A stretch of 39,311 nucleotides of DNA from Leptospirales bacterium. GTDB taxonomy: Bacteria > Spirochaetota > Leptospiria > Leptospirales > Leptonemataceae. The stretch spans positions 1 through 39,311 of the forward strand of contig JAIBBN010000023.1 of the NCBI GenBank assembly GCA_019694655.1, given 5' to 3'. The translations under genes were made by a program, and so were the position numbers. This document shows positions 11,508 through 16,656 of this stretch, one piece after another (the first letter of the stretch is position 1; the number at the start of each line of letters is the position of its first letter). The notes beneath the pieces are model-generated. The model saw nothing but the letters and a program-made list of their open reading frames with translations. It was not told where the DNA came from and did not search any database.

Positions 11508-13379
11508 TTACATCGGCTCAAGACGCGGACCATTGACCCACCACATGCGTATCTCCCCGCGGTTCTTGATGGCAATAGAACCGCGCGCCTCGCCTTCAAA
11601 AGCATGCTGAACAAGTCGCCAGGTGTCTTCAGAAACATTGACTCTGCCAACTTCGCCGGCGGCCTCCAGGCGATTGGCCACGTTCACGGCATCGCCCCAG
11701 ATATCGTAAGCGAACTTGTGCTCGCCGACAACGCCGGCAACAACCGGTCCAGAATGAAGGCCAACGCGGATTCGCCAGGGGGCCTTGCCAAAAAGGGTCC
11801 TGCGTCGCGCCTCCGCTTCGACATAGTCTTGCATATCCAGTGCAGCGCGTACCGCACTGGCGGCGCTGTTTTCACGAGGATGGGGGACCCCGCTCACGGC
11901 CATGTAGGCGTCGCCTATGGTCTTGATTTTCTCCAGGCCGTGGCGGGTCATGATGTGGTCGAAGGCCACAAAATAATCGTTCAATATGTGAACAATTTCC
12001 TCGGGCGACAGAGAACGGACGAGCGTTGTAAAGCCGGCAAAATCGGAAAAAAGGACCGTGGCGGCGCCGTAGCTTCTGGGCTCCGACCGACCGTGCAGTT
12101 TGAGTTCTTCGGCCGTATCGGCCGGCAGAATGTTTAGCAGCAGCTCCTGCGTTCGGTCCTTTTCGCGGGCCAGTTCAGCGGTCCTTTCGCGCACCTGCTT
12201 TTCCAGGTCTTCGACAAAAGCTTCTTGCAGGCGTATGATTTCCGCCTGCTTGGCATGTGCATCGCGCTCTGCCTCACGAAGCGGAGTAACGTCGCGACTC
12301 ATGCTGATGATACCCAGCGGATTTCCCTGGTCATCAAAGAGCAGGTCCATCGACTGGAAGGCCTCAAAGTCCCGTTCCTCGCCCTCGACGATCAGTCGCC
12401 TGTGCTTCGTTTCTCCCGACCAGTGTCCCAGATCGCGCAGGCCGGCCACGATCGCCTGGCTGAGCTCGGCCGAAGGGCGCGCCAGCAGGTCCAGGTTTTG
12501 ACCGGATATCTGAGCGGGGTCGCGACCATACAATCTTCCAGCCGCACGGTTGGCAAAGAGGATCGTACCGCTCAGGTCGGCCAGAACAATGGACTCCGAG
12601 CTTCCCTCTACAATCTGCCGGTACATCCGAAAATGCCGGGTGGCGTCGTCGCTCAAGGCGCTTTCCGCCTGGGCCGCGCCGCTATCGCTGCGAATATGCA
12701 CAACAATTCCCAGCGGATGTCCTGTTGGATCAAACACCAGGACGCATCGCGTCGTGAGGCGCAGACCGCTTCGCGTTCTGGCGACAAGATCGGCGGACCC
12801 TATTTCAGATAATTTTGCCGGAAGATCGATGCCGGGGTCTTCGAAACTCAGGCAGTCATCAAGCGTTCCGCCGTCGGTGGCGCCGGCAAAGAATTCGCAG
12901 ATTTCGTTTGCCGCCTGATTGGAGTAAAGCACGCGACCCTGAAGATCGGCGACCATCGCCGGTTCTGGAGTTGAAAGAGCAAATCGCTCAAGGAGCAGCG
13001 CCTTCATCTCCATCGTTTGCAGATCTTCCAGCTGCGGATGCCAGAAGATCAGCCACTGTCTGCGTCGCGCGTCCCAGGCGCCATGCAGGCGCGCCGGCAG
13101 CGCGCTTTGCCCATCGACTTGTGGAAAGCGGGCCTGAAGTTGGCCCCAGAGATCGGTGCGGTCCGGGGCCTGCAGCGCATAGCGAGCCTGATCCAGCTCC
13201 GCTTCAAGCACCAGGCCGCACTCCAGCAAATTGCCAGCATCTCCGCGCGCCGCCAGATAGGCCGATAGAGGACCGCCCGAAGAAACAATGACGCCCGATG
13301 GTTCGACAAAAGCAAAGGGCAGGCCAGGAAGGTCGCGTCGCAGCGAAAGTCTGATGGGCGATTCCGGGTCCTTATGCAT
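11508..13379 (-). CDS. PAS-PAS class III adenylate cyclase
   Basis: The 623-aa cytoplasmic protein makes cyclic nucleotide in response to a PAS-domain signal. After an N-terminal sensor-like part it has two PAS domains (around FALSTPEPAMVADLQGRVLY and EGSSESIVLADLSGTILFAN), a coiled coil (QEAFVEDLEKQVRERTAEL) and a C-terminal class III cyclase domain. Catalytic features are FSDFAGF near 445 and IGDAYMA (metal aspartates), the Lys of KIKTIGD and the Asp of YDIWGDAVNVANRL. Lys plus Asp at these positions point to ATP rather than GTP. The start is taken as ATG 13379 (MHKDPES); the frame runs further upstream into the divergent peroxiredoxin gene. No membrane helix is seen. The PAS ligands are unknown. 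Confidence 0.9.
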   Translation of the reverse strand: MHKDPESPIRLSLRRDLPGLPFAFVEPSGVIVSSGGPLSAYLAARGDAGNLLECGLVLEAELDQARYALQAPDRTDLWGQLQARFPQVDGQSALPARLHGAWDARRRQWLIFWHPQLEDLQTMEMKALLLERFALSTPEPAMVADLQGRVLYSNQAANEICEFFAGATDGGTLDDCLSFEDPGIDLPAKLSEIGSADLVARTRSGLRLTTRCVLVFDPTGHPLGIVVHIRSDSGAAQAESALSDDATRHFRMYRQIVEGSSESIVLADLSGTILFANRAAGRLYGRDPAQISGQNLDLLARPSAELSQAIVAGLRDLGHWSGETKHRRLIVEGEERDFEAFQSMDLLFDDQGNPLGIISMSRDVTPLREAERDAHAKQAEIIRLQEAFVEDLEKQVRERTAELAREKDRTQELLLNILPADTAEELKLHGRSEPRSYGAATVLFSDFAGFTTLVRSLSPEEIVHILNDYFVAFDHIMTRHGLEKIKTIGDAYMAVSGVPHPRENSAASAVRAALDMQDYVEAEARRRTLFGKAPWRIRVGLHSGPVVAGVVGEHKFAYDIWGDAVNVANRLEAAGEVGRVNVSEDTWRLVQHAFEGEARGSIAIKNRGEIRMWWVNGPRLEPM

Positions 13380-13400
13380 ATAGTGACTCAAGCACCTTAT

Positions 13401-13429
13401 TTGACGCCCAGACCTTTGATTGGTGATAC
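13401..13429 (+). promoter_or_regulatory. Possible sigma70-type promoter for the peroxiredoxin gene
   Basis: TTGACG (13401-13406) and a weak -10 TGATAC (13424-13429) are 17 bp apart, between the divergent cyclase and peroxiredoxin starts. The resulting leader before ATG 13443 would be very short, so this is only a candidate. Confidence 0.25.
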
Positions 13430-13442
13430 GGGAAACCTGTCC

Positions 13443-14159
13443 ATGAACCTGCAATCTGAACTTTCCAAATTTGCCGAACAGCTACAACAGAACGCCCCGC
13501 CGGAGCGCATCAGACTTTTTGAGACCTTTGTTGGCGCGCTGCAGAAGTCCGGAATAACGACCCTTGGACCGAAGAAGGGCGAGCAGATTGGCGATTTTGA
13601 GGTCGCCAATGTCTACAGTCTGCCAGCCGGCCGATCGCTGGGCGAGCGTATTCCCAATTTTTCGCTGCGCGACCACATGGATCGTCTGGTGCGTCTTTCA
13701 GATTTCCTGAGCAAGGGGCCGGTGGTGCTCAGCTTCTATCGCGGAAACTGGTGTCCTGCCTGCAACATTGAACTGCGTGCGCTGCAGCACAACCTGCCGC
13801 GCTTCAAGGAAGCGGGCGCGCAGCTGGTTGCAATCAGCAATGAAAGTCCCGATCAAAGCATTACTACGGCGGAGAAGCTGCAGCTTGAATTTGCCGTGCT
13901 TTCCGACCCTGGCGGACGGGTGGCGCGTCAATTCAAGCTGCTCTATCAATCTCCCGGTCAGGAACGTTTCTTCTCAGATGTGAACATTGCCGCCCACAAT
14001 GCGGACAGCGTGGCGCGCTTTGTGATTCCGGCGACCTATGTGATTGACCAGAACTATGTGGTTCGCTATGCCTTTGCCGATGCAAATTTCTTGCATCGCG
14101 CCGACATCGAAGAAGTGATTGCGGCGCTGCAATCTATCGCCGCCGGCGCGCCGCGCTGA
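13443..14159 (+). CDS. Peroxiredoxin, AhpC/TSA family
   Basis: The 238-aa thiol peroxidase reduces hydrogen or organic peroxides in the cytoplasm. The thioredoxin-fold core starts near GERIPNFSLRDH (67-78). The peroxidatic site is FYRGNWCPACNIELRAL, with Cys104 and Cys107 in a CxxC arrangement. QLVAISNESPDQ and FAVLSDPGGRVARQF follow, as in AhpC/TSA proteins. A helical N-terminal extension of ~65 residues precedes the core. I chose ATG 13443 (preceded by GGGAAA); an upstream ATG at 13374 overlaps the start of the divergent cyclase and adds unlikely residues. The gene is single on this strand, convergent with the radical SAM fusion, whose stop is 34 bp away. Confidence 0.88.
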   Translation: MNLQSELSKFAEQLQQNAPPERIRLFETFVGALQKSGITTLGPKKGEQIGDFEVANVYSLPAGRSLGERIPNFSLRDHMDRLVRLSDFLSKGPVVLSFYRGNWCPACNIELRALQHNLPRFKEAGAQLVAISNESPDQSITTAEKLQLEFAVLSDPGGRVARQFKLLYQSPGQERFFSDVNIAAHNADSVARFVIPATYVIDQNYVVRYAFADANFLHRADIEEVIAALQSIAAGAPR

Positions 14160-14193: not shown

Positions 14194-16656
14194 CTAGCAA
14201 CAGCCATCTTCCGTACTGCAGCAAACGTAGCTTTGAAATTCGGCGTCTGGATCGAGGATGGCGAAGCTGGAAGCATAGGGCGCTCGCGAGAGCTTGGCCA
14301 CGGTGTCGGTACAGATCTCGTAGGGTTCGCCGCGCAGGAACTGGTGGCCCTCTTCATCAACCAGCGCCTTCCCAGGTCCCAGGTAGACGGCCTTATGCCC
14401 GGCAAAAACACAGCCCGATTGCTTTTCAAATTTCCAGGCGCGCACTGTGACTGAGTAGAATGCGATGCCTTCGACAGTCTTCCAGTATTGCTTTGCCAGA
14501 AGTTCCAGTCCAAAGAAGCCGGCTCGCTCCAGCGTGGCATAGAGCTCGGGCTCGGTGAGCGCCCCGACCAGGCACTCGCCCCACAATTGCGGGTTCACTT
14601 TGAGATGAGCTGGAGCGTCAACCTCCGAAACGATATCGGAGAATACGATACGACCGTGATCGCGCAGCGTCTGCCACATGCCTTCAAAGACGCGCAGCTT
14701 GTCCGGCGAAAGATTGATCACACAATTTGACGTGATCAGGTCGACGCTGCGCGGCGGCAACGGAATCGATTCCAAAAACCCGCGCCGAAACTCAATATTG
14801 TCATAGCCCAGCGCCGCAGCCACCGTGGGTCGGTGTAGTTGAGCTACCTCCAGCATTTTGTCGGTCATATCGATGCCAATGGCGCGTCCCTGCGCGCCGG
14901 TCAGGCGCGAGGCGATAAATACATCGATGCCGGCGCCGGAACCCAGATCGACAATCGTCTCGCCCGGCTGAATGCCCGCTCGCGTGACCGGCGATCCACA
15001 GCCGTAAAATCGATCGATCACTTCTTTCGGAATGTGATCGATTACCGATGGATCGAAGCTGGTGGGGCAGCACAGTTCTGCCTGAGGAGTCGCGGCGGCA
15101 GCGCCATAAAACTCGCGCACTTTGGCCCGCGGCAGATCCACGTCAAAGGACAGGACGCAATTGGAATGTAGAGTAAGCACGCTCTTGTCCGCCAGACGCT
15201 CGTCAGCGGCGCCACAAGCTATAGCGCCGGCGCCCATGGCGTGCAGAATCAGAGGAGAGACATGACCGGAACGACGATTGACCCGATCACGCTTTTCGCG
15301 GCCAAGCTCGGTCATGGCATGGCGAATCAAGCTTCGAGTAAGCGGATAGTAGGGATCCTCGCCCAGAAAGGAGCCGCTGTAGAGATAGGCGTGCTCCAGA
15401 TCGCCGCCGCCGGTCAGGAAGCGAAAGGGGTCGGCGGCAACTCCTGGCTGATGAATCAGGCTGCACTGTCGCAGCTCCTGACAGATCTGTGACGCGCTCC
15501 AGATCCGGGCGAGCTCCGTTTCCAGAACGCTGCCGCAGATCAGCGGATCAAGGCCCGCCAGAGCGGCCGAGGGAAAAACGCGGCCGTCCGCGCCGACGCA
15601 AATCGATTCCCATCCCTGGTTGCCCAGGTCATAGCGCACGTGTGGAACGCCGTTTACACGACGGCGCGCGGCCTCCAGATTGTCGAAGGCAATGCCAGCG
15701 CTCTGCGCCGCACGAATTACAGCAGGCAGTCGCTCTCCAATTCTGGCGGCTGCCGGAAAAAAGCCGTTCTGTGCAGCAAGCGCTCGACCGCGTCGCAAGG
15801 ACCACATCAGATGAAAGCTGCTGGCGCCATGGCTGGCGACAATGGCCGGGATTTGCTCCAGCTCTGCAAGATTCTCCTCCGCCGCGACGCAGGTGGCCGA
15901 TACGGAGAATCCCATAGCGCTGAAGCGTTGCATCCCGGAGAGCGCTTGCTGCAACGCGCCCGGGCCGCGCATGGCGTCGTTGACCGCCGCAGAGGCGCCA
16001 TCGATTGAAATTTGAATCTTAAGGAGCTGTGTATCAAGCTCCTTAAGCCCGGCGACAATGGAGGGGCCCCATAGGCTGCCATTGGTCAGTACAATCGTTT
16101 CCAACTGCGCGTCGTGGGCGCGCCGCAGATGCTTCGTCAGATCTTTTCGTAGAAAGGGTTCGCCGCCAGTTATATAAAGACGCTCAATTCCAAGATGAAT
16201 TGCGTTCTCAACCAGCGCATCAATGCGTTCCTCGGAAAGACCGCGGTCGCCGCCGGGGCCGGACTCCACCAGGCAGTGCTGGCAGCTCAGATTGCAGTTG
16301 TTGTTGATTTGCAGCCACAATTCGCGCAGCCTCTCCGGAGGCGCGCTGGCCAGGCGGCCGGCATAGGATGCGACGTCCGTTGGCCTCTGAGCGGCCATTT
16401 TTGAGCGCTCCAGACTTGCTGCAAAATCATGGGCTTCAATCATGGCCCGCGCCGGCTCGATGCCCTCGCTGGCAATTCGCAAACCGGCCAGTTGGCCCAC
16501 GCTCAAGCCGGGCGTAGCAAGCAATGCCTGAATGGTTCGATGGCCAGCCTCTTCGACTACAATCCAGTTGGGCGCTTCCGGCGCCACGTAGTAGTGGAGG
16601 CCATCGTCGACAAAGTGGTAGACCGGGGCCATGAATAGCTTTGTACTACTTTCCAC
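14194..16656 (-). CDS. PqqD-like / radical SAM-SPASM / ArsM-type methyltransferase fusion
   Basis: This 820-aa protein joins three modules. Residues ~9-85 resemble a PqqD-type peptide-recognition domain. Residues ~108-400 form a radical SAM enzyme with the cluster motif CNLSCQHC (121-128), GGEP (164-167) and a SPASM-like region (~345-400, Cys353, 374, 392, 398). Residues ~500-745 are a SAM methyltransferase of the arsenite methyltransferase (ArsM) type: ELCC (529-530), FYGCGSP (Cys553), DLGSGAGIDVF, GIDMTDKMLEVA, SNCVINLS (Cys645) and GECLVGAL (Cys695), so the usual As(III)-binding cysteines are present. The C-terminus ends in two CC pairs (812-813, 819-820). GTG 16656 follows CGGAG with 7-nt spacing. 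Methylation plus radical modification of arsenic, as in arsenosugar synthesis, is inferred; a peptide substrate is an alternative. Confidence 0.82.
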   Translation of the reverse strand: MESSTKLFMAPVYHFVDDGLHYYVAPEAPNWIVVEEAGHRTIQALLATPGLSVGQLAGLRIASEGIEPARAMIEAHDFAASLERSKMAAQRPTDVASYAGRLASAPPERLRELWLQINNNCNLSCQHCLVESGPGGDRGLSEERIDALVENAIHLGIERLYITGGEPFLRKDLTKHLRRAHDAQLETIVLTNGSLWGPSIVAGLKELDTQLLKIQISIDGASAAVNDAMRGPGALQQALSGMQRFSAMGFSVSATCVAAEENLAELEQIPAIVASHGASSFHLMWSLRRGRALAAQNGFFPAAARIGERLPAVIRAAQSAGIAFDNLEAARRRVNGVPHVRYDLGNQGWESICVGADGRVFPSAALAGLDPLICGSVLETELARIWSASQICQELRQCSLIHQPGVAADPFRFLTGGGDLEHAYLYSGSFLGEDPYYPLTRSLIRHAMTELGREKRDRVNRRSGHVSPLILHAMGAGAIACGAADERLADKSVLTLHSNCVLSFDVDLPRAKVREFYGAAAATPQAELCCPTSFDPSVIDHIPKEVIDRFYGCGSPVTRAGIQPGETIVDLGSGAGIDVFIASRLTGAQGRAIGIDMTDKMLEVAQLHRPTVAAALGYDNIEFRRGFLESIPLPPRSVDLITSNCVINLSPDKLRVFEGMWQTLRDHGRIVFSDIVSEVDAPAHLKVNPQLWGECLVGALTEPELYATLERAGFFGLELLAKQYWKTVEGIAFYSVTVRAWKFEKQSGCVFAGHKAVYLGPGKALVDEEGHQFLRGEPYEICTDTVAKLSRAPYASSFAILDPDAEFQSYVCCSTEDGCC

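Follow-up and report, generated by a model that had tools for sequence, protein, structure and literature searches.

The question raised by this locus is whether arsenic methylation and radical transfer to arsenic, chemistries that the initial annotation proposed to be coupled in one chain of PqqD-like, radical SAM/SPASM and ArsM-type modules, can be carried out by a single protein. The gene occupies positions 14194..16656 of the window (the whole stretch of 39,311 nucleotides that was analysed), starts with GTG and encodes 820 amino acids; like the parts of the protein located below, it lies on the reverse strand. The open reading frame is real and intact. Specifically, chance, an assembly artefact or a foreign contig can be ruled out as the source of the fusion, because the composition of the window contig matches that of the rest of the genome, a neighbouring gene is 70-77% identical to same-family genomes, and full-length homologues exist in other phyla.

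Eleven full-length members are known from our searches, found in the window genome, eight Gemmatimonadota and two Omnitrophota, and the relatives are 45-58% identical to the window protein. L013 (Gemmatimonadetes, 56%) as well as L014 and L015 (both Omnitrophota, 48%) came from one scan of genome contigs, and a search profile built from these three and the window protein was run on 395 Gemmatimonadota genomes. This returned seven full-length copies (including G061, which is L013), one longer copy of 906 aa (G149) and contig-edge pieces in G101 and G392; no relative of the fusion was found in the viral contigs searched. Among 393 genomes of the window's own phylum the fusion is present in the window genome (G000) only, which points to horizontal acquisition. 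The tetranucleotide profile of the gene is nevertheless near that of its own genome (0.85-0.89) and far from those of two Gemmatimonadota loci (0.49-0.56), and together with the identity of the neighbouring gene this indicates that the contig is native and that the fusion gene has adapted to its genome.

The C-terminal half (aa 506-820, 14197..15141) is, judged by its sequence, a true and complete long-type ArsM, for which methylation of As(III) is predicted. This rests on profile scores, on the best solved-structure matches, all of which are ArsM/AS3MT, and on a tree position inside the ArsM set, so that the grouping with non-arsenic methyltransferases that would have spoken against the annotation was not observed. 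The methyltransferase model PF13847 matches aa 563-713 and the ArsM model PRK11873 scores 205 bits at aa 526-727, below its curated cut-off of 263; no curated cut-off of an ArsM model is passed by the fusion. The ArsM-type methyltransferase spans about aa 510 to the protein end and is closer to ArsM than to other SAM-binding methyltransferases. The criterion for ArsM taken from PMC5552862 is the presence of three or four cysteines equivalent to C44, C72, C174 and C224 of CmArsM. Indeed, all four As(III)-binding positions that had been recognized at the outset (C529/530, the first, placed approximately, C553, C645 and C695) are invariant in 11/11 members, and C749 and C782 are additional invariant cysteines of this domain. 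The tail ending in CC (14197..14226), initially singled out as a special feature, proved to be ordinary, as it also closes the stand-alone long ArsMs of L005, L009, L016, L017 and L018. Two of these, from Nitrospira (L017:2276-3502 and L018:4529-5713, 395-409 aa), have an apparent repeated C-terminal segment, and in L018 an ArsS gene directly follows the stand-alone ArsM.

The radical SAM core (aa 105-345, 15622..16344) is recognized by PF04055 (aa 117-268, E 5e-21) and by NCBIfam models, and its fold matches SkfB/CteB with a Z of 24. Its [4Fe-4S] motif CxxxCxxC (C121/C125/C128, 16273..16296) is identical in all full-length members, so this part of the annotation holds and the protein belongs to the radical SAM superfamily as defined by PF04055 and the motif. 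The claim of intact SPASM cysteines does not hold. The SPASM-like segment (aa 347-440, 15337..15618) matches PF13186 weakly at aa 347-396 (15.6 bits, below the cut-off of 21.5); C374 is invariant, C353 is kept in 9/11 members (missing in L075 and L078), and the other ligands are replaced (D409, T415; D419). In 10/11 members the cysteines of the CX2CX5CX3C pattern are replaced (V/M/A/L, D, T), C406/C409/C415 being kept only in L079, the deepest relative, and the CRSC...GGC region of PqqE falls on DPFRFLTGGGD of the window protein. Most of the auxiliary-cluster cysteines by which SPASM proteins are defined, CX2CX5CX3C included, are thus missing from the family, and its SPASM fold is degenerate. 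A conserved linker (aa 441-505, 15142..15336) contains C481 and C500, both invariant in the 11-protein alignment, and with C374 these could hold another cluster. In the L079 protein (L079:1501-4218), which keeps the three SPASM cysteines, an inserted stretch of roughly 65-80 aa separates the SPASM-like segment from the linker.

According to the predicted structure, the first 86 residues are PqqD/RRE-like. The PqqD model PF05402 has no match in the window protein; it exceeds its cut-off only in L077 (25.2 versus 23.4 bits), and seven other relatives give sub-threshold matches. In the AlphaFold model of the 820-aa protein (mean pLDDT 75) the domain (aa 6-86, 16399..16641) is modelled as strands followed by three helices with a pLDDT of about 90, while a poor single-sequence model of this domain by itself (pLDDT 56) was left out of the analysis. 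The full model can be superimposed on CteB, an RRE-containing maturase, over aa 10-453 (Z 24) and on TigE over aa 4-467.

In both trees the fusions form one clade, with support of 97/93 for the radical SAM half and 99/98 for the ArsM half, and L079 is the deepest branch of each. The simplest reading of these trees is therefore that the fusion is ancient and arose once, and that both halves share one history. The stand-alone ArsM nearest to the fusions is that of L016. ArsS sequences sit apart on a long branch as a clade of their own, and their grouping with the fusions (91/78) is not relied on since few outgroups were used. Both main halves have dN/dS values of roughly 0.07-0.16 in three pairs, with several dS values near saturation, and this indicates purifying selection on both.

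Genes flanking the relatives tie the family, by context, to an arsenosugar-associated gene set. In five of the nine multi-kb relative loci (L013, L014, L015, L074 and L076) a TIGR04282 match over the cut-off lies no more than about 2 kb from the fusion, and none lies within that distance in L075, L077, L078 and L079. TIGR04283 lies near the fusion in L074 and L076, the FAD oxidoreductase NF004991 in part of the relative loci (below its cut-off in L074), VTT/TVP38 genes in some and DUF547 in L014; PHO4 phosphate transporter genes are found 3′ of the fusion in L013, L064, L076 and L080, and another precedes the ArsM of L016. Named ArsS genes on plasmids have neighbours of these types too, in sets that differ from record to record. 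Beside the Gemmatimonadetes fusion, L013:12010-16029 carries MerR-like and MerT-like genes, named from sequence reading only, and an rve_3 integrase domain. In the window no arsenic genes adjoin the fusion, whose neighbours encode a peroxiredoxin and a UPF0060 protein; the AhpC/TSA peroxiredoxin gene (13374-14159) converges on the fusion gene with 34 bases between them. ArsS is on contig 9 of the window genome, and TIGR04282 and TIGR04283-like genes are on other contigs, unlinked to the fusion. On contig 1 (146701-147633, L041) TIGR04282 and a TIGR04283-like match share one 458-aa open frame.

The radical SAM half is not an ArsS orthologue, as it scores 61-72 bits (61 for the window protein) against a cut-off of 300 for the ArsS model TIGR04167 and lies in a separate clade. 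ArsS over the cut-off is present in 0/13 genomes (12 carrying the fusion, whole or in part, and G453 with ArsM alone), an absence to which the incompleteness of MAGs adds doubt; the window genome is the exception in carrying both. A test for mutual exclusion within Gemmatimonadota was not significant (of 395 genomes 34 have ArsS, 10 have the fusion and 0 have both, P = 0.40), ArsS being rare there (33-34/395).

Since family members in other bacteria adjoin arsenosugar-associated genes, the fusion may build arsenic sugars or a new organoarsenical, and for the same reason the coupling of methylation and radical transfer, as initially suggested, is the best reading. We put at roughly 45% the probability that this one chain acts as an organoarsenical synthase of arsenosugar type. 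In the scheme that we infer, from methylation activity and radical transfer through the order of steps to the product, the ArsM domain would bind As(III) via its conserved cysteines and use SAM to methylate it; cleavage of SAM by the radical SAM domain would then give a radical (most likely 5′-deoxyadenosyl, as in ArsS) for transfer to methylated As(III), forming the next C-As bond. In the relatives the product may pass to the neighbouring TIGR04282/TIGR04283 glycosyltransferases. The ArsM features, the genes around the relatives, the shared history and purifying selection of both halves and the lack of ArsS over the cut-off in fusion genomes other than G000 argue for this; against it stand a radical SAM half outside ArsS, a fold and RRE-like domain resembling peptide-modifying enzymes, a true ArsS and the glycosyltransferase genes elsewhere in the window genome, the lack of arsenic genes beside the fusion in the window, and the P of 0.40 in Gemmatimonadota. 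More tentatively, a non-ArsS, RRE-bearing radical SAM enzyme might make C-As bonds in the methyltransferase's own chain, replacing ArsM plus ArsS in Gemmatimonadota and Omnitrophota and possibly yielding a new arsenical.

It is unlikely that the halves serve different steps of one pathway. In this reading the ArsM would feed dimethylarsenite to a separate ArsS such as that of the window genome, and the fused radical SAM domain would modify a later intermediate or make a different C-As bond, e.g. with 3-amino-3-carboxypropyl. The window genome does have ArsS, the fusion is its sole ArsM-like match at E 1e-5, the radical SAM half falls outside the ArsS clade, and ArsL, which transfers a 3-amino-3-carboxypropyl group, is a precedent for a non-ArsS radical SAM enzyme making C-As bonds (PMC8552651). 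However, the other fusion genomes seem to be without ArsS, so that there the ArsS step would fall to the fusion or not take place at all. Improbable, too, is an arsenic-modified peptide, in which the RRE-like domain would bind a leader and the radical SAM domain would link methylated arsenic to the peptide. A peptide-linked product, already raised by the annotation, is conceivable given this domain, and the solved folds closest to the radical SAM half in the model search belong to RiPP maturases, sactipeptide ones among them (SkfB, CteB, SuiB and TigE). Yet no conserved precursor gene was found within 3 kb of the fusion across 11 loci, where no small ORF is conserved beyond pairs of loci (the matches being mostly antisense to, or within, long genes). 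Also against this reading, most of the auxiliary-cluster cysteines usual in such maturases are missing, and the relatives' neighbours are of the arsenosugar type. Least probable is detoxification only, with a working ArsM and a radical SAM domain whose role has become regulatory, reductive or unrelated to arsenic by drift, which would fit the lost SPASM cysteines and the lack of ars genes beside the window gene but sits badly with the invariant CxxxCxxC and with dN/dS of roughly 0.12-0.16 (three pairs) in the N-terminal plus radical SAM half.

In the literature searched, ArsS and ArsL are the only radical SAM families named for C-As bonds. An organoarsenical synthase of this kind, if confirmed, would add a third that carries its methyltransferase in the same chain; it would widen the sources of organoarsenicals to phyla for which that literature reports no arsenosugar synthesis, and would offer a one-protein system for studying C-As chemistry. 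No report of a radical SAM-ArsM fusion was found in the same literature, nor is one mentioned in the passages found in PMC5552862 and two selenoprotein papers. The annotation's premise that ArsM and ArsS are separate proteins may not always hold, as a genome of the window genome's family (G020) has an ArsS-type radical SAM domain and ArsM in one 692-aa open frame (L004:1435-3513, reverse strand); this frame has no ATG, GTG or TTG before CxxxCxxC, and is thus either an independent fusion or a frame error.

Compared with known systems, the C-terminal half resembles ArsM/AS3MT (PRK11873, NF040538; CmArsM 4fr0, 6cx6) in sequence, fold, SAM motif, the four As-site cysteines and the long-type C-terminus with CC, and differs in sitting behind a radical SAM protein and in having C749 and C782. 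ArsS (TIGR04167), which adenosylates arsenic (PMC12159101), shares with part of the relatives the kinds of neighbour (TIGR04282, TIGR04283, VTT/TVP38, FAD oxidoreductase and DUF547) and, like the fused radical SAM half, is a proposed partner of ArsM; apart from its low score, that half differs at its ends, being RRE-like at the N-terminus and SPASM-like at the C-terminus. RRE-containing SPASM maturases (CteB, SkfB, SuiB, TigE; PqqE/PqqD) have the same domain order and fold over aa 10-455, whereas the fusion has mostly lost the auxiliary-cluster cysteines, has no precursor peptide found and has ArsM attached. ArsL of arsinothricin synthesis, compared by its description in PMC8552651 and without alignment, is likewise a radical SAM enzyme that acts on arsenic together with an ArsM, but as a separate protein. 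A precedent for a fused ArsM is the ArsM-SelD protein of Naegleria gruberi, described in PMC5552862, in which the partner is a selenophosphate synthetase instead of a radical SAM enzyme.
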